From Halostagnicola kamekurae (GTDB lineage Archaea; Halobacteriota; Halobacteria; Halobacteriales; Natrialbaceae), in the NCBI RefSeq assembly GCF_900116205.1, contig NZ_FOZS01000001.1, positions 496,001-560,000 of the forward strand: a DNA stretch of 64,000 bases, written 5' to 3'. Position numbers and translations under genes: made by a program. Position 1 is the stretch's first letter, and each line of letters begins with the position of its first letter. Positions 1 through 14,389 of the stretch are shown here, piece by piece. The notes below the pieces were generated by a model, which made no database searches, was not told the origin of the DNA, and saw only the letters and a list, made by a program, of their open reading frames with translations.

Positions 1-2
1 AC

Positions 3-1031
3 GTCGTTGAGAGTCTGGTTACCGGAATCGACTCCGTCCGGTTTCGCATTCTCGCCTCACAGCCCCGCGGACGCCCCAGCGTCGACGAGGTCGACGGAAC
101 GACGGTCGTCCGGGCCGGGAGTCTTGGCGCCGTCGCGTCGACGCCGATCAGCCCGACGTTTCCGTATCTGCTACGGAAACAACTCGAGTGGGCTGACGTC
201 GTTCACTACCACCTGCCGTTTCCGCTCGGTCCAGTCAGTCACCTGCTCAATCGAGCGGCCGTTCCGGTCGTCGTGACGTTTCACGACGACATCATCGACA
301 AGGAGCCGTTCGTCTATCCGTACAACCGGGTGCTCGATCGGTTCCTCCGCGGGGTCGATACTATCATCGTCTCCTCGCCGAACATGCGAGACGAGTGCGC
401 TCGCATTTCGAAATTCTCGGCGAAAACGACGGTGATCCCGCTCGGGATCGACGTCGACGAGACGTCGGTCGAGCCCCGGACCCGCGAGGGAACGAGGCTC
501 CTGTTCGTCGGTCGACTGGTGGAGTTCAAGGGCGTCGAATACCTCATCTCTGCGATGCGGAACCTCGACGCGTCGCTTTCGATCGTCGGAAAAGGTCCCG
601 CTCGAGAGAGTCTCGAGCGACACGCCGAGGCAGAAGGCGTCTCGCAGAAAGTGACGTTCGAGGGCTTCGTCTCAGACGAGCGATTGGAGCAGTTGTACCG
701 CGACGCGGACGTCTTCGTCCTGCCGTCGGCGGGCGAAAACGAATCGTTCGGCATCGTCCAACTCGAGGCGATGAGCCACGGACTGCCGGTCATCAACACG
801 GCGCTTCCGACCGGCGTCCCCTTCGTGAGCGTCGACGGGGAGACCGGCCTCACCGTCGACCCGGGCGAACCAGACCAGATCGCCGACGCCGCCAGAACGC
901 TGTTCGAAGACGACAATCGGTATCGTCGCTATTCGGCCAACGCACAGCGTCGCGTTATCTCGAAGTTCGACGAGCAGGAGATGCTCGAGCAAACCGCCGA
1001 CGTCTATCGAGACGTGCTAGAGCGCGCGTGA
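3..1031 (+). CDS. GT4 family glycosyltransferase (5' end outside window)
   Basis: Retaining glycosyltransferase of the GT4/GT-B type, transferring a sugar from a nucleotide donor during surface glycan or exopolysaccharide assembly at the inner face of the membrane. The frame is open from base 3, so the gene begins upstream; an ATG at 273 is internal because good GT4 sequence (a V-V-H-Y-H-L-P-F stretch, then TFHDD) precedes it. The C-terminal Rossmann half shows LLFVGRLVEFKGVEYL and the donor-site E-x7-E pattern in NESFGIVQLEA. It lies 94 bases upstream of a co-directional membrane protein gene, with two more GT4 genes nearby, so a glycan cluster is likely. The acceptor and sugar cannot be read from sequence. 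Confidence 0.9.
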   Translation, partial: VVESLVTGIDSVRFRILASQPRGRPSVDEVDGTTVVRAGSLGAVASTPISPTFPYLLRKQLEWADVVHYHLPFPLGPVSHLLNRAAVPVVVTFHDDIIDKEPFVYPYNRVLDRFLRGVDTIIVSSPNMRDECARISKFSAKTTVIPLGIDVDETSVEPRTREGTRLLFVGRLVEFKGVEYLISAMRNLDASLSIVGKGPARESLERHAEAEGVSQKVTFEGFVSDERLEQLYRDADVFVLPSAGENESFGIVQLEAMSHGLPVINTALPTGVPFVSVDGETGLTVDPGEPDQIADAARTLFEDDNRYRRYSANAQRRVISKFDEQEMLEQTADVYRDVLERA

Positions 1032-1125: not shown

Positions 1126-2358
1126 ATGGGAGTGCTGGCGACCGTCGTCGTGGCGTGTCTGTTCGCGCTGGTTAGCCGACACCGTTCGCGGGTCTATCGA
1201 TACGCCGGCGGCGTCGCGCTCGCGGGGCACGTTTTCGTCGCCGTCGCCGTCGTTCCCCGGCTTCCCTACCAGTGGGACGTTCCGCTCTTTCACGAGAACG
1301 CGATGCGAATACTCGCCGGCGGCGAGACGGCGCCGCTGTCGGTCCTCGACGCCTTCGGGACGGTTCAGGCGCTCGTATACGCGCTCTTCGGCGCCGATCC
1401 GACGACGCTCGCGATCGTCAACGGACTGTTCGCGGTGCTCATCCCGCTCCCCGCGTGCTATCTCGCCGATCGGCTCTACGGGTCGCTCGAGTCGACTGAC
1501 GGCCTCCTGCTCGCCTTGCTTTTTCTCCCCGCCCCGTTCGTGTTCAACAGCCTCCCCATGCGCGACGCGCTGTCGACGCTGCTCGCGCTGGCGCTGATCG
1601 CGCTCGTCGTTCGGGTTCTCGTCGACGGCCGGTACTGGTCGGCGCCCGCTCTGCCGCCGCTCTGGGGGATGTTGTTCCTGCTTCGGGAGGAACTCGCCCT
1701 GCTCATCCTCCTAGGGGCCGCCGGGTCGATTCTCGTCGCGGTGGCCACGGAACTCACCGGTGGACGACTCTCGCTCGCGTCGCTCTCGCTGGTCGCGACC
1801 CCGATCGGCCTCGCCGGATTCGCGTTGTTCTCCCGGCTGTTCCCGGTCGACATCCTCAACGCTCGACTGCAGTACCGGTCTGTGGGCGGGGCGGCCTACC
1901 TCGAGCCCATGCACTACGAGTCGTGGTTCGACGTGGTTCTCGCCGCGCCGGTCCGCGCGATCTACTTCCAGTTCGCGCCGTTTCCGCTCCACGTCGATTC
2001 GCTGTTCGATCTGCTCGCGGCCCTCTCGCTCCCGATTTTGATCGTCCTCGTCACGACATCCTTCCTGTCGTTGCGCGCCGCCGAGACGGATCCGGTCGTC
2101 GAGATCTCCCTGCTGATCTTCTATTTCGGCGGGATACTCGGCTACGGGCTGATCGACTCGAACTTCGGAACGACGATTCGCCACCGGATCCTGTTCGTGT
2201 TCCTGCTCGGCGTGTTCAGCGCGCCGGTGTTCGAGTCGTGGCTCCGGTCAGTCCGCCGGCGGGTCGACGACGCGCGTGGCGAGCAGCGACAGTCCGACGA
2301 AAAGGAGCAGGAAACTGAGGAACTTGACGCCGGCACCGAGGTCGGTCGCGAACACTGA
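1126..2358 (+). CDS. Polytopic membrane protein, GT-C-like
   Basis: About 410 residues with roughly ten hydrophobic segments and few charged loops. The layout (an early extracytoplasmic loop with Asp/His, the segment NSLPMRDALSTLLALA, and a late TIRHRILFVFLLG segment) is reminiscent of GT-C glycosyltransferases or polysaccharide polymerases that use polyprenyl-phosphate sugars. That is an inference from shape and neighbours; no diagnostic motif was found. The last 35 residues are hydrophilic and acidic, and the 3' end overlaps the convergent gene at 2248-2511 by 111 bases. It probably follows the upstream GT4 gene in one transcript. Confidence 0.75.
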   Translation: MGVLATVVVACLFALVSRHRSRVYRYAGGVALAGHVFVAVAVVPRLPYQWDVPLFHENAMRILAGGETAPLSVLDAFGTVQALVYALFGADPTTLAIVNGLFAVLIPLPACYLADRLYGSLESTDGLLLALLFLPAPFVFNSLPMRDALSTLLALALIALVVRVLVDGRYWSAPALPPLWGMLFLLREELALLILLGAAGSILVAVATELTGGRLSLASLSLVATPIGLAGFALFSRLFPVDILNARLQYRSVGGAAYLEPMHYESWFDVVLAAPVRAIYFQFAPFPLHVDSLFDLLAALSLPILIVLVTTSFLSLRAAETDPVVEISLLIFYFGGILGYGLIDSNFGTTIRHRILFVFLLGVFSAPVFESWLRSVRRRVDDARGEQRQSDEKEQETEELDAGTEVGREH

Positions 2359-2612: not shown

Positions 2613-3833
2613 TCAGGCGCTGATCCGTTCGAACAGCCGCTCGACCCGGTCGGTGACAGCTTCCCACGTGTAGCCCGACTCGAGGACGTACGAGCGGGAC
2701 GCCTCGCCCGCCGCCGCTCGCTCGGAGGGCGGTACCCGCGCCCAGGCGCTCATCAGGGCCGCCATTCGGTCCGCGTCGCCGGGCGGAACGAGCAACGACT
2801 CCGGAACCGCTGGCTCATCCTCGAGGTCCTCCAGTATCTCCGGCGTCGCGCCGGCGGTCGTCCCGATCGCGGGCGTTCCAGCGGACAGCGCCTCGAGCGT
2901 CGCGAGCCCGAACCCCTCGAGCTCGAGCGTCGGGAGGACGAACGCGTCCGCCGCGGCGTAGGCGGCCGCGAGCCGGTCGTCGGGGACGTATCCCAGAAAC
3001 GTCACGGCCGAGTCGATGCCGCGGTCGACAGCGCGCGACTCTAACTCGCTTCGAAGCGGGCCGGAGCCGCCGATGTAGAGGTGGGTGTCGCCGTTCTCCC
3101 GGTGGACCTCGGCGAACGCGTCGAGCAGCGTCTCGAGGCCCATCCGCGGCGTGAGCCGGCGGATGGTGAGAAAGTTGCAGGCGTCCGGGTCGAAGTGGTC
3201 GGTCTCGGACGCCGCTTGGTCGACGCGGTCGACGTCGGATCCCGCTCGCGGAGCGAATCGATCGACGTCGACGCCGCCGGGGATCACGGTGCTCGAGCGT
3301 ACCCGCGGGTGAAAGTCGGCGAGGCGCTTTCGCATGAACTCGCTCAGGACGATCACCGTCTCGCAGTTGCCCATCACGCGGCCTTCGATCCGCTGGCGGA
3401 ACTTGCGGTTGAGCCGATGCCACGGGGCTTCCCACGCGCTCGTCGCGTCCGTCCGCTCTCGGTACTCCACCGCCCAGAGACCGTGGAGGGTGTACGTTCG
3501 CGGGATTCGGTCCGGAAGCGCCCGGTCCACGCCGAACGAGCTCAGCGCGCCGTGGAAACTCGCCAGATCGATCGGCTTGGCCGAGTCGATGGAGGCGACG
3601 CATCGATCGATCGTTCGAAGCGTCATCGGGAGTCGCGGAATCGATGCGTCGTAGCGCCACACGTCCATTCCCGCGACCCGTTCCCGAACCGGTGCGCTAT
3701 CTCGCCGTCTGGTGACGACCGAGACGTCGTGGCCTCGCTCGACCAGCCGTCGACCGACCTCGTAGTTGTACCGCCCGGAGCCGGTGGCGCTCGGTTCCGG
3801 GAAGAGGTTGTTCGTCGCGAGCAGCACGTGCAT
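2613..3833 (-). CDS. GT4 family glycosyltransferase
   Basis: About 406 residues, the usual GT4 length. The N-terminal acceptor-side Rossmann domain starts MHVLLATNNLFPEPSATGSG, with the glycine-rich loop expected of GT4 enzymes; this is why the ATG at 3833 is chosen over a longer frame reaching 4097. The C-terminal half has VIPGGVDVDRF and FLGYVPDDRLAAAY, and the donor-site E-x7-E motif in ELEGFGLATLEALSAG. The gene is divergent from the sulfatase-like gene at 3996. Specific sugar unknown. Confidence 0.9.
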   Translation of the reverse strand: MHVLLATNNLFPEPSATGSGRYNYEVGRRLVERGHDVSVVTRRRDSAPVRERVAGMDVWRYDASIPRLPMTLRTIDRCVASIDSAKPIDLASFHGALSSFGVDRALPDRIPRTYTLHGLWAVEYRERTDATSAWEAPWHRLNRKFRQRIEGRVMGNCETVIVLSEFMRKRLADFHPRVRSSTVIPGGVDVDRFAPRAGSDVDRVDQAASETDHFDPDACNFLTIRRLTPRMGLETLLDAFAEVHRENGDTHLYIGGSGPLRSELESRAVDRGIDSAVTFLGYVPDDRLAAAYAAADAFVLPTLELEGFGLATLEALSAGTPAIGTTAGATPEILEDLEDEPAVPESLLVPPGDADRMAALMSAWARVPPSERAAAGEASRSYVLESGYTWEAVTDRVERLFERISA

Positions 3834-5044: not shown

Positions 5045-6265
5045 ATGGAAATCGGATTTATCCACCCGAGCTATCCGCAGGGAGAGGGGACGGGAGCGGT
5101 CCAGAGCGCCTCCCGCATCGTCTCCGAGTTAGCGACTCGAGGACACGACGTGACCGTCTACTGTCGGGAATCGCCGCCCGAGACGGGGCGCGATCACCCG
5201 GACCTGTCGATTCGATCCCTCGAGCGCTCGGGCTATCCGTACCACACGGGCCTCCAACTGGATCGAGCGCTCCGGGACCGACGCGCGGAGTTCGAGGCGT
5301 ACGACGTCGTCCACAGCTACGTCATGAACGCGCTCCCGGCGCTGGGAGAGATCGCCGCGGAGACGTCGGCGGCCACCGTCGTGACGTTAAACGCCTACGG
5401 CGGAATCTGCGCGAAGAACGACCTCCGCTACATGGACCGGGAGCCCTGTACCGGAAACGGGCTCGCGAAGTGTGCGACCTGCTCGATCGCGACCAGCGGC
5501 GGCCACGACGAGGACGGCATGCTCTACCGATCGGCGAGCCGACTCGGCTACCTCAAGCTGGTTCGAGACGGCGAGCGAAACGCCGATCGAATCGACGCCT
5601 ACCACGCCCTGTCGCCACACATACGGGAGACGTACGCCGACTTCGGCTTCCCGCGGGATCGACTCGAGGTGATCCCGAACATTCTCGACGACCGGTTTTC
5701 CCGGCCCCACGAGAGCGACTTCGACGAGCCCTACGAACTACTGTACGTCGGCTCGCTCGATAGCCATAAGGGAGTCGAGCGATTGATTCCGATCCTTGCA
5801 GCGTTGTGCCGGCGCTCGTCCGCGCGGTTTCGCCTGACCGTCGTCGGCGACGGCGGGCTCCGGTCCGATCTGGAACGACAGGTGGCGGCGAACGGGCTCG
5901 AAGACGCCGTCTCAATCACTGGCTGGCTCCCGAACGAGGACCTGCCGAGCGTGTTCGCCGCCCACGACATGTTCCTGTACCCCGGCCAGTGGGACGAGCC
6001 GTTCGGGCGGGTGTTCCTCGAGGCGCTGGCGACCGGGACGCCGGTCGTCGCCAGCGATGTCGGGAGCGTCGAATCGATCGTCGCCGACGGCGGGCGAACC
6101 ACCGACGGAACCGTCGACGGGTTCGTCGAAACCGTTCTAAAACTCCTCGCGGCCGACGAACTGGAGTCGATCTCGGCCGCCGCGAAACGGCGGGCCGAAG
6201 CGTATCGAGCCGACGTCGTCGTCCCGCAACTCGTCGAACTGTACGAACGGGCGCTCTCGCGGTGA
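5045..6265 (+). CDS. GT4 family glycosyltransferase with cysteine-rich insert
   Basis: About 406 residues. MEIGFIHPSYPQGEGTGAVQ is a clean GT4 N-terminus with the Gly-rich acceptor loop; a GTG at 4919 would add 42 low-complexity residues and is rejected. The C-terminal half has ELLYVGSLDSHKGVERLI and the donor motif DEPFGRVFLEALATG. A segment around residues 118-148 has several cysteines (GGICAKN, EPCTGNG, CATCSI), suggesting a zinc or disulfide-stabilised loop seen in only some GT4 enzymes. It is the last gene of the glycan cluster before the iron-regulated region. Confidence 0.88.
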   Translation: MEIGFIHPSYPQGEGTGAVQSASRIVSELATRGHDVTVYCRESPPETGRDHPDLSIRSLERSGYPYHTGLQLDRALRDRRAEFEAYDVVHSYVMNALPALGEIAAETSAATVVTLNAYGGICAKNDLRYMDREPCTGNGLAKCATCSIATSGGHDEDGMLYRSASRLGYLKLVRDGERNADRIDAYHALSPHIRETYADFGFPRDRLEVIPNILDDRFSRPHESDFDEPYELLYVGSLDSHKGVERLIPILAALCRRSSARFRLTVVGDGGLRSDLERQVAANGLEDAVSITGWLPNEDLPSVFAAHDMFLYPGQWDEPFGRVFLEALATGTPVVASDVGSVESIVADGGRTTDGTVDGFVETVLKLLAADELESISAAAKRRAEAYRADVVVPQLVELYERALSR

Positions 6266-6327
6266 AACGAAACGACCAAGGCTCGGTGGTTCTGGTCAGC
6301 ACCGCCACGAATTCGGCACGGATTTTG

Positions 6328-6373
6328 TTTTGGTTGGCCTAAAAATCGCAATCGTTTTGAGGATGGCCTAAAA
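6328..6373 (+). promoter_or_regulatory. Two putative iron-responsive (DtxR-like) operators
   Basis: Imperfect inverted repeats TTTTGG-TTGG-CCTAAAA (6328-6344) and TTTTGAGG-ATGG-CCTAAAA (6355-6373), about 28 bp centre to centre, lie upstream of the siderophore-type operon starting at 6461. The same architecture recurs at 14373-14389 before the iron ABC transporter. The half-site CCTAAAA/TTTTAGG resembles DtxR/SirR/Idr-family operators. That they are iron-responsive is inferred from this resemblance and from the genes controlled. Confidence 0.65.
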
Positions 6374-6460: not shown

Positions 6461-7051
6461 ATGACTGGGCCACGGGAACGTATCAGTTCGGAGTACAGTT
6501 ATTTCACCACCGAAGCGGCTATCGGGAAATCGATCGGCTTCCGGGAGGTGGACATAGAGCGCGATCTGGGACGACTCCACACCTGGTTGAACAGCGAGCA
6601 CGTACTCCCGTACTGGGAGCAAAACGATCCGCTTCCGGTCGTTCGAGACACGATTCGAGAGCGGGCGACCGATCCCAATCAGACGCTCTACATCGGCTAC
6701 CTCGACCACACGCCGATGAGCTACTGGGAGTCCTACTGGGCGGACGAAGATCGGATCGGGGACTACTACGACGCGCGTCCGGCCGACCAGGGCTTTCACC
6801 TGCTCATCGGCCCCGAAGAATACCTCGGGAAGGGGTACGCAACGCCGTTAGTGCGGGCGATGGTCGCGTTCCAGTTCCGTCACGCCGAAACGGATCGTAT
6901 CGTGACGGAACCGGACGTCCGAAACGACCGCGCTATTCGCGTCTTCGAAAAGAGCGGCTTCGACCCCGTCCGCGAGGTCGACCTGCCCGATAAGACGGGT
7001 CTGCTCATGATCTGCGAACGCGATGGGTTCGAAGCGGGGGCAGACCCGTGA
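6461..7051 (+). CDS. Acyl-CoA N-acyltransferase of siderophore type (IucB/AlcB-like)
   Basis: GNAT-fold protein of 196 residues resembling the hydroxylysine acetyltransferase class (IucB/RhbD) that acylates the N-hydroxyamine of lysine, ornithine or a diamine to make a hydroxamate. Visible features: GFREVDIERDLGRLHTWLN (the AlcB-type start), YWEQND, a central PMSYWESYW, and the acetyl-CoA loop EYLGKGYATPLVRA. The stop overlaps the GTG start of the N-monooxygenase by 4 bases, indicating an operon. It is the first gene behind the two putative iron operators. Acyl donor (acetyl or other) unknown. Confidence 0.85.
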   Translation: MTGPRERISSEYSYFTTEAAIGKSIGFREVDIERDLGRLHTWLNSEHVLPYWEQNDPLPVVRDTIRERATDPNQTLYIGYLDHTPMSYWESYWADEDRIGDYYDARPADQGFHLLIGPEEYLGKGYATPLVRAMVAFQFRHAETDRIVTEPDVRNDRAIRVFEKSGFDPVREVDLPDKTGLLMICERDGFEAGADP

Positions 7052-8412
7052 CCGACGGCTACGACGTCCTCGGAATCGGTGTCGGACCGTTCAATCTGGG
7101 GCTCGCCGCGCTCCTCGAGGACGCCTCGGCCGACCTCGAGGTCTGCTTTCTCGAGCAGGAACCGGAGTTCAACTGGCACGAGGGGATGCTCATCGAGGAG
7201 ACCACGCTCGAAGTCCCGTTCCTCGCGGATCTGGTGACGATGGTGGACCCGTCGAACCCCTACAGCTATCTCAACTACCTCAGCGAACGGAACCGCCTGT
7301 ACGAGTTCTACTTCTACGAGGAGTTTTTCATTCCCCGACGCGAGTACAACGAGTACTGTCGGTGGGTCGCAGATCAACTGCCGACCCTCGAGTTCGATCA
7401 GCGCGTTACCGACGTCAGGGTCGAGGGCGACGCCTTCGCCGTGGAAACGGTCGATCCGACCTCCGGCGAGCGCTCGAGCTACGTCGCCGACGACGTCGTC
7501 ATGGGGATCGGGACGCAGCGACACATCCCCGAGCAGTTCGAGGACCACCTCGGGCGGGACGTGTTCCACTCGGCGTCCTATCTCCACAACCGCGAGCGCT
7601 GTCTCGAGGCGGACTCGATCACGGTCGTCGGCTCCGGCCAGAGCGCCGCGGAGGTGTTTCGCGATCTCCTCGAGCGACAGGCGGACCGCTCGTACAGCCT
7701 CGACTGGCTCACTCGGTCCCGCGGATTCTTCCAGATGACTGACGCCAAGCTGGGTCACATGATCTTCACGCCCGATTACACGGAGTACTTCTACGATCTG
7801 GATCAGGAGACCAAAGACGAACTCCTCGCCGACCAGGGCCTCCTGTACAAGGGCATCGATGAGGCGACGAGCGCGAAGATCTACGACGCGCTGTACCAGC
7901 GTTCTATCGGAGACGACGACCCGGACGTCGGGCTCCTCGCCGCGACGGCGGTCACCGACATCGGACCCGCTCGCGCCGACTCGGACGGCTACCAGTTGAT
8001 CTGCGAACAGTGGCAGGAAGCCGAACAGTTCGTCCACGAGAGCGAGGTGGTCATCCTGGGAACGGGCTACAACCGCACCGACCCGCCGTTTCTCGCGCCC
8101 CTCGAGGATCGGATCCACCGCGATGAGGACGGCCGCCTCGAGATCACGAAAGACTTCCGGCTCGAGACCGACCTGAGTGCCGGCGAGATATTCGTCCAGA
8201 ACGCGGAGTTACACACTCACGGGGTCAACGCCCCCGATCTCGGTCTGGGTCCCTATCGGAACGCGACAATCGTCAACGAGATCGTCGGCGAGGACGTATA
8301 CGACGATACGAGGGCAGACACCTTCCAGAGCTTCACGGTCGACGATTTCGTCGACAGGCGCGGCGCTCGACGGCTCCCGGAAACTCGCTCGCAGATCCCG
8401 ACCGACGATTGA
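7048..8412 (+). CDS. L-lysine/L-ornithine N-monooxygenase (siderophore biosynthesis)
   Basis: Flavin-dependent N-hydroxylating monooxygenase of 454 residues that uses NADPH and O2 to hydroxylate the side-chain amine of lysine or ornithine, the first step to a hydroxamate siderophore. FAD-binding GIGVGPFNLGLA at about residues 8-19, FNWHEGMLIEET, the NADPH-binding VVGSGQSAAEVF near residue 193, and the family C-terminus ELHTHGVNAPDLGLGPYRN near residue 390 are all intact. Overall pattern is nearest to lysine N6-hydroxylase (IucD), but lysine versus ornithine cannot be settled. The start is GTG, translationally coupled to the acyltransferase; the ligase gene follows after one base. Confidence 0.92.
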   Translation: MTDGYDVLGIGVGPFNLGLAALLEDASADLEVCFLEQEPEFNWHEGMLIEETTLEVPFLADLVTMVDPSNPYSYLNYLSERNRLYEFYFYEEFFIPRREYNEYCRWVADQLPTLEFDQRVTDVRVEGDAFAVETVDPTSGERSSYVADDVVMGIGTQRHIPEQFEDHLGRDVFHSASYLHNRERCLEADSITVVGSGQSAAEVFRDLLERQADRSYSLDWLTRSRGFFQMTDAKLGHMIFTPDYTEYFYDLDQETKDELLADQGLLYKGIDEATSAKIYDALYQRSIGDDDPDVGLLAATAVTDIGPARADSDGYQLICEQWQEAEQFVHESEVVILGTGYNRTDPPFLAPLEDRIHRDEDGRLEITKDFRLETDLSAGEIFVQNAELHTHGVNAPDLGLGPYRNATIVNEIVGEDVYDDTRADTFQSFTVDDFVDRRGARRLPETRSQIPTDD

Positions 8413-8413
8413 G

Positions 8414-10243
8414 ATGGTCGGGATCTCTGGCGCGTTCGGCGAGGCCGCCGGCAGTTGCGACGTCGAGACGGTTCCGCCGACGATCGACGGCGGCGAAGTC
8501 ACGGATCGCTACCGCGAGCGAGGCGTGACCATCAGCTCGGCGTTTCACGCTGGCATGGCGACGGACCAGCCCGTCGAGGCCGCAGACGGCGGGCTCGTGT
8601 GGGTCTGGGGAGAAGTCTACAGCGTCACCGACGGTGCCGGCGCTCGGACGACGGTCGACCCAGCCGAGTCCGCGCGTGTCTGTGCGAGGCAGTATTCGGA
8701 ACACGGTCTCGAGTTCATCAGCCGACTCGACGGGGAGTTCGTCGGCTGTATATACGACGCTGACGCCGGTACCGTCTCGTTCTTTCTCGACCGACTCGGC
8801 GCGCGGCCGCTTTACTACTGGAGTGGGGAAGATGGGTTCGCCTTCTCGACGAGCGTCCAGACGGTCCCGCTGGTTCCGGAATTCGAGCCGCGATTCGACG
8901 AGCGGTACCTGGCCGAGTATCTCTACTGTCGGCGGACGCTCGGGACGAAAACGCCGGTCGAGGGGATCGAACAGCTCCCGCCGGCGACGGTGCTGACCTA
9001 CGATCTCGAGTCGAAGACGACCGAGCAACACCGCTACTGGGAGCCGCGATACCGGCCGGTGGACGAACCCCTCTCGTATTTCACGCGGGAACTGGCCGAC
9101 CGGTTCGAACGGGCGGTCGCCGACCGGACGAGCGACGATCGCGAGCATGGCGTCTTGCTGAGCGGCGGCAGCGACTCTCGTGCGGTGCTCGCCGCCGCGG
9201 ACGAGCCGCCGACGGCCTTTCATCTGGGAGACGGGTGGAATCGAGAGGCGCGGATCGCAAAGCGAGCGGCCGACGCCGCGGGAGCGGCGTTTCGCCTCCT
9301 GAACCGCGGCCCGGACTATCACGCGACGCTGTTAGAGCGCGCGGCGCCGATCCAGGAGTTCGTCGGCCCGTTTCACACCGGGCACGCGCTCGGGTTCGCC
9401 GAGGAGATCGACGCGGAGGTCGATACGCTGCTGACGGGCCTGTACAGCGACGACCTCTTCGGCTCGTGGAGCGTCCCGCAAGCGACGCTCCGACTGCCCT
9501 TCGGCGTGCAGTTCTGGCTCCCGTTCGAGCGGCTGCCGTCGACGACGGCCGACTTCGTGGCAAACCAGGTGGCCGCGGGACCGACGCGAAAGCCGGCGTT
9601 TCTCGAGTCGAAGCCGCTGGAGGACGTTCTGGCCGAGAACGTCCGCTCTCGGAACGGCCGCGTCGACTATCACGGCGTCGACTACGAGTCGGTCGAACAG
9701 CTGAGTCTGAGTTCGACGCTGTACCCGATCACCAACGGGATCGGCTTCGACCTCTACAGCGCCCTCCAGATCGCGCCGACGCGGAACCCGTTCCTGGACC
9801 GGCGGCTGGTCGATCTGGCGCTCTCGATGCCGCTGAAGTACCGGCTGCGCCACGACCCGCTCCACCGGGCGATGGCGAAATTCGATAGCTCGCTCGCGGA
9901 ACTCCCCCACGCCTCGAGCCGGCTCCCGATCGAGTACCCGAAGGCGGCACACGTCCTCGGCGCTCGCGTGACGAATCAGCTCGACAAACTCGGCCGGTCG
10001 AACTCCTACCGGACGGACGGCCCGTGGCAGGACCGCGACGAAGTCGTCAGAACCGACGATTTCGTGGGCCGAAGCCTCGAGGCGAACGAAGCCGTCGGCC
10101 GTCGGCTCCCCGGCATCGACATGGACGCAGCCCGCGAGACGTATCGCCGCCATCGCGCGGGTGAGATCGACGCTGCGGAGGAACTGTACCGGCTCGTCAC
10201 CGTGCTCGAGATGCCGCTGACGGAGCGAGTCGTCGGTGAGTGA
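8414..10243 (+). CDS. Asparagine-synthetase-like amide ligase lacking the glutaminase cysteine
   Basis: Two-domain protein of 609 residues. The N-terminal ~200 residues have the fold markers of a class II amidotransferase (SRLDGEFVGCIYD, FLDRLGARPLYYW), but the start is MVGISGAFG: the catalytic Cys expected directly after Met is absent. The C-terminal synthetase domain looks active: ATP-pyrophosphatase loop LLSGGSDSRAV near residue 247, GLYSDDLFGSW, and NPFLDRRLVDLALSMP. AsnB relatives without this Cys (beta-lactam synthetase, CarA, lasso cyclases) adenylate a carboxylate and couple it to an amine. In an operon with an N-hydroxylase and a hydroxamate acyltransferase, it may build the siderophore backbone; this is inference. 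True asparagine synthetase is the alternative. Confidence 0.85.
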   Translation: MVGISGAFGEAAGSCDVETVPPTIDGGEVTDRYRERGVTISSAFHAGMATDQPVEAADGGLVWVWGEVYSVTDGAGARTTVDPAESARVCARQYSEHGLEFISRLDGEFVGCIYDADAGTVSFFLDRLGARPLYYWSGEDGFAFSTSVQTVPLVPEFEPRFDERYLAEYLYCRRTLGTKTPVEGIEQLPPATVLTYDLESKTTEQHRYWEPRYRPVDEPLSYFTRELADRFERAVADRTSDDREHGVLLSGGSDSRAVLAAADEPPTAFHLGDGWNREARIAKRAADAAGAAFRLLNRGPDYHATLLERAAPIQEFVGPFHTGHALGFAEEIDAEVDTLLTGLYSDDLFGSWSVPQATLRLPFGVQFWLPFERLPSTTADFVANQVAAGPTRKPAFLESKPLEDVLAENVRSRNGRVDYHGVDYESVEQLSLSSTLYPITNGIGFDLYSALQIAPTRNPFLDRRLVDLALSMPLKYRLRHDPLHRAMAKFDSSLAELPHASSRLPIEYPKAAHVLGARVTNQLDKLGRSNSYRTDGPWQDRDEVVRTDDFVGRSLEANEAVGRRLPGIDMDAARETYRRHRAGEIDAAEELYRLVTVLEMPLTERVVGE

Positions 10244-10304: not shown

Positions 10305-11468
10305 TTACTCGTGAGGATACCACACCAGCGGGTGGTTCGCGACGAGATCGACCCGAACCGTCTCGCCGACGTCGAACACCTCCGTATGGCCGTGGAGACA
10401 CTGCACGGTGTCGCCGCCTTCGGTCTCGACGCGGTAGATAAATGACGGCCCCTGATACTGGCGTCGCGTGATCGTGCCGTCGGCTTCGTTCTCAGTCGTC
10501 GGCGTCACGCGCAGGTCGTCGGGACGGACCAATACGTCAACTGTCGCCTCCTCGAGTAGCGTCCCCCAGTCCGATCGCTCGACTCCGACGAGCGCGTCCG
10601 CGTCGAGCCGACCGACGTCCGTCACGAGCGTGTCGTCTTCGGCCGTCGCGGAGAGGAATCCGGCGCGACCGAGGAAGGAGGCGACGAACCGCGACGCCGG
10701 CCGCTCGAAGACCTTCTCGGGTCGTCCGACCTGCTGGAGGTGGCCGTCGTGCATCACGCCGACGCGGTCGGCGACCGACAGCGCCTCTTCCTGATCGTGG
10801 GTGACCCAGATCGCCGTCACGCCCGTCTCGTCGATGATCCGGCGGATCTCCTCGCGCATCGAGACGCGGAGGCTCACGTCGAGATTCGAGAGCGGTTCGT
10901 CGAGCAGGAGGACGTCGGGTTCGGGCGCGAGCGAGCGAGCGAGCGCGATGCGCTGTTTCTGACCGCCCGAGAGTTCGCTCGGACTGTCGTCGGCGTGGTC
11001 CGCCAGGTCGACGAGCTCTAACAGCTCCTCGACGCGGGCCCGGCGCTCGCTCTCGTTCCACTCCGACAGTCCGAAGCCGACGTTCTCGGCGGCGCTCAGG
11101 TGCGGAAAGAGCGCGAAGTCCTGAAACACCAGCCCGATGCCGCGCTCCTCGGGCGGGACGAACGTCCCGTCGTCGCCGGCGATGACGCGGTCTCCGAGTT
11201 CGATGGTGCCGGCGTCGGGGCGCTCGAGGCCCCCGATCAGCCGCAGGGTCGTGGTCTTCCCACAGCCCGACGGTCCCAGAAGCGTGAGCACTTCCCCGGT
11301 GCCGACCGACAGCGAGAGGTCTTCGACCGCGGTCTCGCTCGTGTACGACCGCACGATGTCCTCGAGTTCGAGCACCGTCGACTGTTCGGGGTCGTCGTCG
11401 AGATCGGCGGACGACATCGCCGACTCTGTCGGTGCGAGCGATCTATCGTAGTGATTGTTTCCTTGCAT
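10305..11468 (-). CDS. Iron(III) ABC transporter ATP-binding protein (FbpC/PotA type)
   Basis: ATPase of 387 residues energising the importer encoded by the next two genes. Walker A GPSGCGKT at residues 65-72, signature LSGGQKQRIALARSL, Walker B DVLLLDEPLSNLD and the H-loop WVTHDQEEAL are all present. A C-terminal TOBE-like extension (about residues 290-387, DVLVRPDDLRV) is typical of FbpC/PotA/MalK-class proteins. A second possible start is the Met at residue 18. It is the last gene of the leftward operon, 4 bases after the permease, and converges on the siderophore-type operon. Confidence 0.9.
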   Translation of the reverse strand: MQGNNHYDRSLAPTESAMSSADLDDDPEQSTVLELEDIVRSYTSETAVEDLSLSVGTGEVLTLLGPSGCGKTTTLRLIGGLERPDAGTIELGDRVIAGDDGTFVPPEERGIGLVFQDFALFPHLSAAENVGFGLSEWNESERRARVEELLELVDLADHADDSPSELSGGQKQRIALARSLAPEPDVLLLDEPLSNLDVSLRVSMREEIRRIIDETGVTAIWVTHDQEEALSVADRVGVMHDGHLQQVGRPEKVFERPASRFVASFLGRAGFLSATAEDDTLVTDVGRLDADALVGVERSDWGTLLEEATVDVLVRPDDLRVTPTTENEADGTITRRQYQGPSFIYRVETEGGDTVQCLHGHTEVFDVGETVRVDLVANHPLVWYPHE

Positions 11469-11472
11469 GAGT

Positions 11473-13122
11473 TCACTCCTCCTGTGAGAGGATGATGACC
11501 ATCGAGAGCGCCGAAACGACGATCAACACCAGCGCGGGGACGGCCGCGAACCCGTAGTATCCGGATTCGCGGACGCTCCAGATGTAGGTGACGAGCGTTT
11601 CGAAGCCGATCGGGTTAAGCATCAATGTCGTGTCCAGCTCCTTCATCGTGGTGAGAAAGACCAGCGCCGCACCGCCGATCACGCCCGGCGCGATCAGCGG
11701 GAGGGTGACTTCTCGGAACGCCCTCGCCGGCGTCCTGCCGAGCGTCCGAGCGGCTTCGGTCAAGCTCTTGTCGACGCGGCGCACGGACGACCGCGTCGAG
11801 CCGACGGCCTGCGGGAGGAATCGGATGGTGTACGCGAAGATCAAAAGCGGCAGCGTCTGGTAGAGCGCCGGAGTGACGTCGACGCCGAAAATCAGCTTGT
11901 TGCCGAGGTTCGCCTCGTAAGACGTGGCGAAGAACACGAGCGCGAGTCCGAGAACGACTCCCGGCATCGCATAGCCCACGTAGGTCGCCCGGTCGAAGAG
12001 TTCGGCCAGCCTGGATCGGTGTCTCGCCGCGAGGTACGCGACCGGAAGCGCGGCGACCGCACAGACCAGCGCCGCCGCCAGCGAGACGGACACAGAGTTG
12101 AGCGCGAACTCCCACTGGAAACGGGCGCCCCGTCTGGCGGTCTGGGTCGGACTCCGGAGCAGCCAGTGGGTCAAGACGGCAAGCGGGACGATTAGACAGA
12201 GCGTGACGACACTCCCACAGAACGCGAGCGCGGGCCCTTTCCACGCCCCCAGCGAGACCGTCGTGTCGCTGCCCGAACTCCCGCCCGCGCCGACGTAGGC
12301 CCCGCTGCTCGAGTCGCCGATCCGGGACTCGATCGCGAGGATAACTACGGTGATCGCCAGCAACAGCACGGAGAGCATGGCGGCCGTCCTGCGACCGAAG
12401 GCGTTGAACTCGACGAAGATGACGCGAGTGAACACGTCCAGGCGCATCAGCGACGGCGTACCGAAATCGGAGAGCGTGTACAGCGCGACCAGAAGCGATC
12501 CCGACGCGATTCCGGGCAGGAGCTGCTTGAGCGTCACGCGCCTGAACGCCTGCCAGCGCGTGGTTCCGAGCGTCCGCGCGGCCTCGACGAGTTGCTGGTC
12601 GAAAGAAAGCAGCGACGCCCGCGTCGTGATGAACACGTAGGGATAGGTATACAGCGTGAGCACGAGCGTCGTCCCCCAGAACCCGTAGATGGAGGGAATC
12701 GATTCGATGCCGATCGGTGCGAGCGCGTCCGAGAGCTGTCCGCTGGGGCCGAACGCCGCGATGAAGGTAAACGCGCCCAGGTAACTCGGGATGACGAGCG
12801 GAAGGGCGACGGCGATGGTCCAGAACCGGCGGAACGGAAGGTCAGTCCGCGCCGTCAAGAACGCGAGGGGCACGCCAAGACAGATCGACGCGCCGGTGAC
12901 GGTGGCGACGAGGCCGAGGCTGGTAAGCAGGATCTCGACGGTCGTCGGGCGCGCGACGATCGACAGCGCGTAGTCGATATCGACCTGCAGCACGCGAAAG
13001 ACGATCCACACGAGCGGCGAGAGCATCGCTACGGCGATCGCACCGCTCAGGAGCGTCAGGCCGACCGGATAGCCGTCGTCCTCGGTCTCGAACTGCCCGA
13101 CCAGCTTGTCGCTCACTGACAT
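11473..13122 (-). CDS. Iron(III) ABC transporter permease (FbpB type, fused double domain)
   Basis: About 549 residues containing two complete permease halves, each with six predicted helices, as in FbpB/SfuB Fe(III) permeases. Each half has an EAA loop for the ATPase: LVEAARTLGTTRWQAFRRVT and LTEAARTLGRTPARAFREVT. It abuts the binding-protein gene (start 13122, previous stop 13123) and is 4 bases from the ATPase gene, so a single transcript is near certain. Substrate is inferred from the family and the upstream iron-box motif. Confidence 0.9.
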   Translation of the reverse strand: MSVSDKLVGQFETEDDGYPVGLTLLSGAIAVAMLSPLVWIVFRVLQVDIDYALSIVARPTTVEILLTSLGLVATVTGASICLGVPLAFLTARTDLPFRRFWTIAVALPLVIPSYLGAFTFIAAFGPSGQLSDALAPIGIESIPSIYGFWGTTLVLTLYTYPYVFITTRASLLSFDQQLVEAARTLGTTRWQAFRRVTLKQLLPGIASGSLLVALYTLSDFGTPSLMRLDVFTRVIFVEFNAFGRRTAAMLSVLLLAITVVILAIESRIGDSSSGAYVGAGGSSGSDTTVSLGAWKGPALAFCGSVVTLCLIVPLAVLTHWLLRSPTQTARRGARFQWEFALNSVSVSLAAALVCAVAALPVAYLAARHRSRLAELFDRATYVGYAMPGVVLGLALVFFATSYEANLGNKLIFGVDVTPALYQTLPLLIFAYTIRFLPQAVGSTRSSVRRVDKSLTEAARTLGRTPARAFREVTLPLIAPGVIGGAALVFLTTMKELDTTLMLNPIGFETLVTYIWSVRESGYYGFAAVPALVLIVVSALSMVIILSQEE

Positions 13123-14361
13123 CTATAGTGCGCCGACATCGCGCAGTAGGTCTAGCGTCGGCTCGAGGTCCGCGAGTTCGGAGAGGTCGAAGTCCGGCGG
13201 GTTTAGCTCGTCGATCGTCGGCAGGTCCCCGACCGGCGGGACGCTGGGGAGCAGCGGGTATTCGTACCCGCGCGTCCCCAGGAACTCCTGGGCCTCGATG
13301 CTTTTCAGGTGGTGGATAAAGTCCACCGCGAGGGTCTCGTTCGGCGTGCCGCGAATGATCTCCGCCCCGGAACAGTTCACGAGTGCGCCCGCATCGCCCT
13401 GCGTGAACGCGAGATCGAGCGGGGCGTCGGGACGCTCTTCGTATACGAGCCGCGAGTAGTAATGATTCGAAAAGCCCGAGCTCAGTTCGCCGTCCGCGAC
13501 CCTGTTCGCGACGACGAGCTCGGTGTCGTACGTGTCGATCCCCTGCTCTTGGACGCCGTTCAACCACTCGCGCGCCTTGCTCTCTCCGTGGATGTGTCGC
13601 ATCGCGGTAACGAACGCCTGAAACGCGCCGTAGGTGGGCGCCCACCCCATCGAGTCGAACCGTGAGTCTTCTGCGAACTCCATGATGTCGGTCGGGATGT
13701 CGGACTCCGAGAAGTCGTTCGTGTTGTAGGGAATGCTCCGAGCGCGCCCCATGATCCCGATCCACTGGTCCGTCGGATGGTACGTATCCGGGATCTCGTC
13801 TACGAGATGCCCCGGGAGTTCGACCGTCGCGTCGTTCTCCGAGACGATCCCGATAGATCCCGCGTCGATCGCCCAGAAGATGTCGGCCGGACTCTGACCG
13901 GCGTTGACCTCCTCGGTAATCGTATTTGCGAGAGACGAGGAGGAGTCTTTGTCGACGTTGACGGTGAAGTCGCGGTAGGTCTGCTCGATTCGCCACATCA
14001 GATTCTCGTACAGACCGCCCTCGCCGCCGCCGAGATAGACCGTCAGTTCCCCCTGCAAGTCCGGCAGATCGAGCATCGAGCGGCCAGTGTACTCCGTGGG
14101 CCGGTCCTCGATGAGCGGCCCGGAGCCGCGCCACTCGTCGAAATTGAAGAGTTCGTCAGTCGTGTACGTCTTCGGATCCGGAATCGGTTCGTCCCGCGAA
14201 TACGTCGACTCCTCGGACTCCTCGCTGATACACCCTGCGAGCGCGAGCGCGCCCGCCGTTGAACTGGCAAGAGTGAGAAACTTCCGTCGTCCGTGTCGCG
14301 TCCCGTATCCCCGCTCGGAACGCCGGCGCGTCTCATCGTCATTGCTCCCGCTTTTGGACAT
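13123..14361 (-). CDS. Iron(III) ABC transporter substrate-binding lipoprotein
   Basis: Periplasmic-binding-protein-type receptor of 412 residues. A Tat signal RRKFLTLASSTAGALALAGC ends in a lipobox cysteine at about residue 39, so the mature protein should be lipid-anchored outside the membrane. A Thr/Ser/Glu/Asp-rich linker follows, then the two-lobed domain (ELTVYLGGGEGGLYENLMWR, LLPSVPPVGDLPTIDEL), matching the FbpA/iron class. The ATG at 14361 is 12 bases from the putative iron operator, so the transcript is probably leaderless or nearly so. Confidence 0.9.
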   Translation of the reverse strand: MSKSGSNDDETRRRSERGYGTRHGRRKFLTLASSTAGALALAGCISEESEESTYSRDEPIPDPKTYTTDELFNFDEWRGSGPLIEDRPTEYTGRSMLDLPDLQGELTVYLGGGEGGLYENLMWRIEQTYRDFTVNVDKDSSSSLANTITEEVNAGQSPADIFWAIDAGSIGIVSENDATVELPGHLVDEIPDTYHPTDQWIGIMGRARSIPYNTNDFSESDIPTDIMEFAEDSRFDSMGWAPTYGAFQAFVTAMRHIHGESKAREWLNGVQEQGIDTYDTELVVANRVADGELSSGFSNHYYSRLVYEERPDAPLDLAFTQGDAGALVNCSGAEIIRGTPNETLAVDFIHHLKSIEAQEFLGTRGYEYPLLPSVPPVGDLPTIDELNPPDFDLSELADLEPTLDLLRDVGAL

Positions 14362-14372
14362 GCTGTCCTATT

Positions 14373-14389
14373 TTTTGGCTTGCCTAAAA
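14373..14389 (-). promoter_or_regulatory. Putative iron-responsive operator of the ABC transporter operon
   Basis: TTTTGG-CTTG-CCTAAAA on the plus strand (ATTTTAGGCAAGCC reading toward the gene), 12-28 bases upstream of the binding-protein ATG. Half-sites and 4-base spacer match the two motifs at 6328-6373. Its position over the expected core promoter fits repression by a metal-bound DtxR-like protein. Confidence 0.65.

Follow-up and report, generated by a model that had tools for sequence, protein, structure and literature searches.

A candidate AsnB-type amide ligase in a probable iron-regulated hydroxamate cluster of haloarchaea

Introduction

The window analyzed here, a stretch of 64,000 nucleotides from Halostagnicola kamekurae (genome G000, 4.1 Mb), contains an operon for a GNAT acyltransferase, an IucD-like flavin N-hydroxylase and an AsnB-family protein. 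The first two make hydroxamates, and the window shows neither an NIS synthetase nor an NRPS. Which enzyme, then, forms the amide bond of the product? The initial annotation of this DNA proposed that the AsnB-type protein, which lacks the glutaminase Cys, stands in for the missing synthetase. On the evidence below, we consider it fairly probable that the locus encodes an iron-regulated hydroxamate pathway in which this Cys-less ligase forms the amide bond usually made by an NIS synthetase and FbpABC takes up Fe(III).

Materials and Methods

Relatives were sought in 125 family and 391 class genomes, with duplicates merged. G201, G126 and L027 were counted as a single species, as were G293, G127 and L028 (100% identity). 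The AsnB active site was read from alignment and motif in 12 AsnB rows, which comprise the ten core clusters and two paralogues.

Results

The locus and its hydroxamate enzymes

The operon was located at 6461-10243, as initially annotated, and Pfam confirmed all three products (Table 1). The GNAT and IucD-like ORFs overlap by 4 nt, the gap between the IucD-like and AsnB-like ORFs is 1 nt, and FbpC-FbpB-FbpA (10305-14361) is convergent to the AsnB gene. Past the window edge are genes for a PF02397 sugar-phosphate transferase, a Wzy_C protein and an MsbA/HepA-like ABC exporter, the last named from a domain scan of its G120 member.

Table 1. Coordinates of genes and iron-box-like sites at the locus, numbered from the first letter of the window.
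Feature	Position	Strand	Remarks
GT4 glycosyltransferase, family F14	1..1031	+	Start upstream of window, C1:495916; Pfam of G120 member
Polytopic membrane protein, F9	1126..2358	+	G070 member has sub-threshold PMT_2 match; window copy has no Pfam match
GT4 glycosyltransferase, F12	2613..3833	-	Start chosen by likeness to relatives; ORF reaches 4097
Sulfatase/phosphodiesterase-like protein, F8, ~308 aa	3993..4922	+	Start by tblastn; G120 member without Pfam match
GT4 glycosyltransferase, F1	5045..6265	+	
Iron-box-like palindrome, second and weaker	6327..6344	none	2 mismatches
Iron-box-like palindrome	6356..6373	none	TTTGAGG-ATGG-CCTAAAA; upstream of GNAT
Siderophore-type GNAT acyltransferase	6461-7051	+	PF13523; close to 2qml, MbtK, DfoC
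Flavin N-hydroxylase	7048-8412	+	DesB/DfoA/putrescine-hydroxylase group; His237 replaces Leu
AsnB-family protein without Cys, 609 aa	8414-10243	+	Proposed ATP-dependent amide ligase
FbpC-type ABC ATPase	10305..11468	-	
FbpB-type permease	11473..13122	-	
FbpA-type ferric-iron-binding lipoprotein	13123..14361	-	Tat-like signal; NHYY motif
Iron-box-like palindrome	14372..14389	none	11 nt upstream of FbpA

The IucD-like protein matches PF13434 at 2.4e-112 (375.9 bits against a cut-off of 21.3) and is the sole PF13434 match of its genome. It had been taken for a lysine-type N-hydroxylase but bears more resemblance to diamine hydroxylases. Among solved structures it is closest to DesB (6xbb), DfoA (5o8p) and putrescine N-hydroxylase (7us3), and the ornithine and lysine enzymes rank behind these. 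According to the accessible text of PMC8009421, Asp391 of DesB would likely repel an amino-acid carboxylate, and this residue is retained in 10/10 cluster hydroxylases. The position of DesB Leu237, on the other hand, is His in all ten and Leu in 27/27 schizokinen-type rows, and thus the substrate may differ. In the IucD tree, a branch with 100/100 support sets the cluster IucDs apart on one side, and the groupings of the IucD and AsnB trees are broadly alike. The GNAT matches PF13523 at 2.8e-52 (176.6 bits against a cut-off of 27). Its motifs H-L-L-[IV]-G and EPDxRN, the His and Asp of which we take to be the catalytic residues, are present in 8/8 rows tested. Together, the two enzymes should yield a hydroxamate that retains a free amine.

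Conservation of the cluster

The order GNAT-IucD-AsnB was found in 10/10 haloarchaeal genomes with this IucD clade (G000, G070, G120, G152, G249, G273, G410, Halosimplex pelagicum, Halorubrum saccharovorum and Halarchaeum rubridurum), with FbpCBA and glycosyltransferases nearby. The pairing of AsnB with an N-hydroxylase, initially noted at a single locus, therefore recurs in every genome found with this clade. At E<=1e-175, an IucD of this clade occurs in 7 of the 391 class genomes, and AsnB adjoins it in all seven. The AsnB start is no more than 15 nt past IucD in any of the ten clusters and no more than 2 nt past it in nine. FbpC is the next cluster gene after AsnB in 8/10; the exceptions are H. 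saccharovorum and G273, where a gene for a family-2 glycosyltransferase separates the two and overlaps the AsnB gene at its end. The exporter, DUF4330, GT2 and sugar-phosphate transferase genes vary in position and are always near the cluster. Since the gene order recurs in ten genomes, it is not due to chance, and this conservation rules out AsnB as a stray neighbor.

The sulfatase-like gene (F8, named by what we take to be a likeness to sulfatases and phosphodiesterases) was rejected as a cluster marker, having matches in 219/391 genomes. No GNAT-IucD-AsnB triad was seen in the stretches fetched from G283, G183 and G316, which carry close F8 copies.

Iron importer and shared palindromes

Among solved structures, FbpA resembles ferric-binding proteins (7w3w, 1.2e-46). 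Its NHYY tyrosine pair, presumably the iron-binding residues, is present in 9/9 clusters, the FbpA counts omitting G410, the stretch of which stops before the gene. A palindrome, TTTTAGG-N4-CCTAAAA with at most 2 mismatches, is found upstream of several units and resembles what we take to be the boxes or operators of the DtxR family, to which the haloarchaeal regulators Idr, SirR and TroR belong. It lies approximately 100-150 nt ahead of GNAT in 10/10 clusters (using a corrected gene start for G273), 10-13 nt ahead of FbpA in 9/9, and ahead of the sugar-phosphate (glycan-initiating) transferase in 6/6 clusters showing that gene. In some clusters it also precedes GT4c or DUF4330. The same palindrome stands ahead of the operons of an NIS locus on contig C4 of the window's genome, described below, and of classical siderophore operons in N. 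aibiense and H. jeotgali. It was absent from positions 22-64 kb of the window, from 472,501 bases surrounding 26 distant AsnB homologues (searched at 2 mismatches) and from about 1 Mb of Markov sequence. Judged by these shared sites, the GNAT-IucD-AsnB triad, the importer, glycan initiation and the NIS locus form one probable iron regulon. The initial annotation did not include the glycan genes, the ferric importer FbpABC or the iron-box-like operators, which point to a glycan-linked product.

In Halarchaeum rubridurum, an iron-box-like site (L028 19434) also lies directly before the gene for a protein of 476 aa that has a Tat-like start; this protein is a candidate regulon member.

The wider AsnB family and a glycan role

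AsnB-like matches at 1e-40 occur in 34/125 family genomes. These wider haloarchaeal homologues, which are common and have 33-43% identity, were sampled in 20 stretches from 19 of the 34 genomes and in six plasmid loci. Cys2 is absent from every intact start seen, and the neighbors are ATP-grasp ligases, polysaccharide genes, sulfatase/phosphodiesterase genes or a YqcI/YcgG protein. In the tree, the core AsnB proteins and two paralogues form one group with 100/100 support, separate from 11 wider rows. The family has the look of a reservoir of biosynthetic ligases, one line of which was drawn into the iron cluster. A scan of viral_contigs with the AsnB alignment gave no relative.

Several of these loci are recorded here as observations. 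The two paralogues, also Cys-less and with 62-64% identity, are located at L091 9101-10927 (window's genome, standing alone) and at L102 (G152, C2:121139-122953, adjoining the cluster), each with its own iron-box-like site about 105 nt ahead. A broken copy of the lone paralogue is present in G019, a genome of the same genus (L093 8632-10511). At L112, L117, L118, L119 and L025, distant Cys-less homologues occur in tandem with a ~400-aa protein, which is ATP-grasp-like in both cases tested (L112 and L118); the tandem is a possible separate amide-forming pathway. On a Halomarina plasmid (L024 8001-11409), an AsnB-like gene is near a YqcI/YcgG protein (PF08892), and some YqcI/YcgG proteins are N-oxygenases.

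The wider family also lends support to a rival account, in which the glycan is the sole substrate of AsnB (a uronic acid might be converted to its amide, for example), the GNAT-IucD hydroxamate is made separately or for another ligase, and the genes are merely co-regulated. In its favor are the distant Cys-less homologues in polysaccharide loci and beside ATP-grasp or sulfatase-like genes without IucD, and the close paralogues that carry an iron-box-like site and lie away from IucD in one genome and beside the cluster in another. We nevertheless judge it rather unlikely. AsnB follows IucD at the short spacing given above in 10/10 clusters, no IucD of the clade was found without AsnB, and eight genomes would be left with no known hydroxamate ligase.

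NIS and NRPS synthetases

An IucD homologue is present in 39/125 family genomes. Thirty IucD loci were compared, 9 of the 36 other IucD-bearing family genomes having no locus and being left out of the neighbor count. In the 3/3 cluster loci AsnB is downstream and there is no IucA/IucC within 1.5 kb, whereas in 27/27 of the other loci IucA or IucC is within 1.5 kb (IucC in 24). An annotated example, in N. aibiense, has the order DAT, decarboxylase, IucA, GNAT, IucD, IucC, where the second gene is annotated as aminotransferase-family and is called a decarboxylase after the H. volcanii scheme. AsnB thus occupies the IucC slot, and its place in the operon is conserved in ten genomes.

The question of iucA/iucC or NRPS genes elsewhere in the genome had a divided answer. 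A search of the ten cluster genomes, some of which are drafts, with PF04183 (NIS) found no match in 8/10, with E. coli and Haloferax volcanii controls positive; the Halosimplex genome searched was 5.2 Mb. PF00668 (NRPS condensation) was found in 0/9 distinct cluster genomes, G410 being outside this set, with four controls positive. However, PF04183 proteins were detected in the remaining two genomes: two in G249 and three in the window's own genome (C4:136-149 kb). Both G249 proteins resemble the third of the latter, a rhizoferrin-like NIS enzyme, and are unlike IucA/IucC. The C4 locus (L004 5480-16001 and L005 25-4582) is a second siderophore locus, of the kind that the initial annotation named as a possible refutation of its proposal, with an IucA-like enzyme (49% to N. 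aibiense IucA), an IucC-like enzyme (50%) and the third NIS enzyme. It also encodes DAT, a decarboxylase, an ABC exporter, a BtuF-like binding protein, FecCD and a gamma-glutamylputrescine synthetase that exceeds its NCBIfam cut-off. The C4 locus has no hydroxylase, and it may make a siderophore that is mixed or free of hydroxamate.

Since C4 has no hydroxylase and the window has the only PF13434 protein of the genome, the window GNAT and IucD could also serve C4. In this organism they might then supply the distant IucA/IucC-like locus for an ordinary schizokinen-type siderophore, leaving AsnB a side role, and the palindrome common to both loci agrees with such an exchange. This account is improbable in our view, as it would not extend to the eight cluster genomes without an NIS gene or to G249, in which both enzymes are rhizoferrin-like, and the His237 hydroxylase pocket differs from that of all the schizokinen-type rows. 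The proposal of a new hydroxamate assembly is thus supported in part, by a Cys-less AsnB conserved in the IucC slot of ten genomes, eight of them NIS-free; for the window's genome it is qualified, as the hydroxamate there could also feed the C4 IucA/IucC.

Residues and scores of the AsnB-family protein

The AsnB-like protein matches PF00733 at 3.9e-19 (70 bits against a cut-off of 21) and, more weakly, GATase_7/GATase_6. Residue 2 is Val at the glutaminase Cys position and SGGSDS is at 250, in agreement with the initial annotation; both the Val and the intact PP-loop SGGSDS were present in 12/12 rows. The position of E. coli Glu348 is Leu in 12/12, the equivalence being set by motif (SGEGSDE versus TGLY(S/C)D(D/S/V)) because MAFFT misaligned that stretch. 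The protein is below threshold for TIGR01536, asparagine synthetase B (108.8 bits against 267.1, E 3.4e-31), and for the lasso cyclase model NF033535 (72.6 against 525 bits). Beta-lactam synthetase 1jgt matches at only 1.6e-05, and the top PDB match, using a profile, is 7ylz at 2.4e-12. An AlphaFold2 model of the protein built from four aligned rows reached a pLDDT of 38 and a pTM of 0.24, too low for use. Close relatives are those of Halosimplex pelagicum (75%), H. saccharovorum (63%) and Halarchaeum rubridurum (56%).

An asparagine synthetase, whether functional or decayed, is a very improbable identity for this protein: despite the Asn_synthase and GATase matches and the TIGR01536 E-value, it falls far below the family cut-off with Cys1 and Glu348 replaced in every row, and the 56-75% identity kept between genera argues against decay. 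The natural reading is that it would be an ATP-dependent amide ligase using an external amine.

Discussion

The pathway that we propose has five steps. First, the IucD/DesB-like flavoprotein would N-hydroxylate an alkyl diamine, or an amine of similar kind, at one end, and secondly the GNAT would acylate the hydroxylated amine to a hydroxamate still bearing a free amine; homology argues strongly for both, and no diamine-making gene was found in the cluster. Third, the glutaminase-dead AsnB-family enzyme may adenylate a carboxylate in its synthetase domain and join it to the free amine, thereby forming the bond for which ordinary clusters use IucA/IucC. Fourth, and more speculatively, the carboxylate could be part of a glycan made by the co-regulated sugar transferases, or the product could end on it, with export by the MsbA/HepA-like ABC exporter. 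Lastly, FbpABC, a transporter well assigned by homology, would import Fe(III).

A bolder extension, which we put forward as possible though doubtful, is that hydroxamate metallophores have a third route besides NRPS and NIS. In it, the AsnB-type ligase would put acyl-hydroxylamines on the carboxylates of a lipid-linked or surface glycan, and the resulting polymer would trap iron at the cell surface and pass Fe(III) on to FbpABC. A link to glycan would suggest that archaea can hold iron ligands at the cell surface, and such ligands would fit the presence of a ferric, rather than a ferri-siderophore, importer in the cluster. If the proposed ligase reaction is correct, it would be a new amide-forming step in metallophore chemistry. 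Siderophore mining targets NRPS or IucA/IucC genes, and 8/10 of the cluster genomes would be scored as pathway-free. The palindrome offers a simple handle for mapping haloarchaeal iron regulons. No description of the cluster was found in the open-access literature searched.

Among known systems, the schizokinen-type operon of Haloferax volcanii, dat-bdb-iucA-iucB-iucD-iucC, is iron-responsive and likewise has a GNAT followed by an N-hydroxylase; in contrast, its ligases are NIS synthetases, it has no AsnB, and the accessible text of PMC7407949 mentions no glycan genes. SsDesB, DfoA and putrescine N-hydroxylase are the closest solved hydroxylases; the cluster enzymes keep Asp391 of DesB and have His at the position of its Leu237. 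Beta-lactam synthetase and lasso-peptide cyclase belong to the AsnB family and have likewise lost the glutaminase Cys while retaining the ATP loop, but the window protein is far under the cyclase cut-off and matches the synthetase weakly. The TsnB9-type hydroxyamidotransferase 7ylz, which we take to be the trichostatin enzyme, shares the AsnB family, ATP dependence and hydroxamate chemistry. Enzymes of this type move hydroxylamine onto a carboxylate. The accessible text on SaHAT, a homologue of 7ylz, describes ATP-dependent carboxylate activation (PMC13418202). The present cluster differs from 7ylz in that its hydroxamate would be expected from IucD and GNAT.
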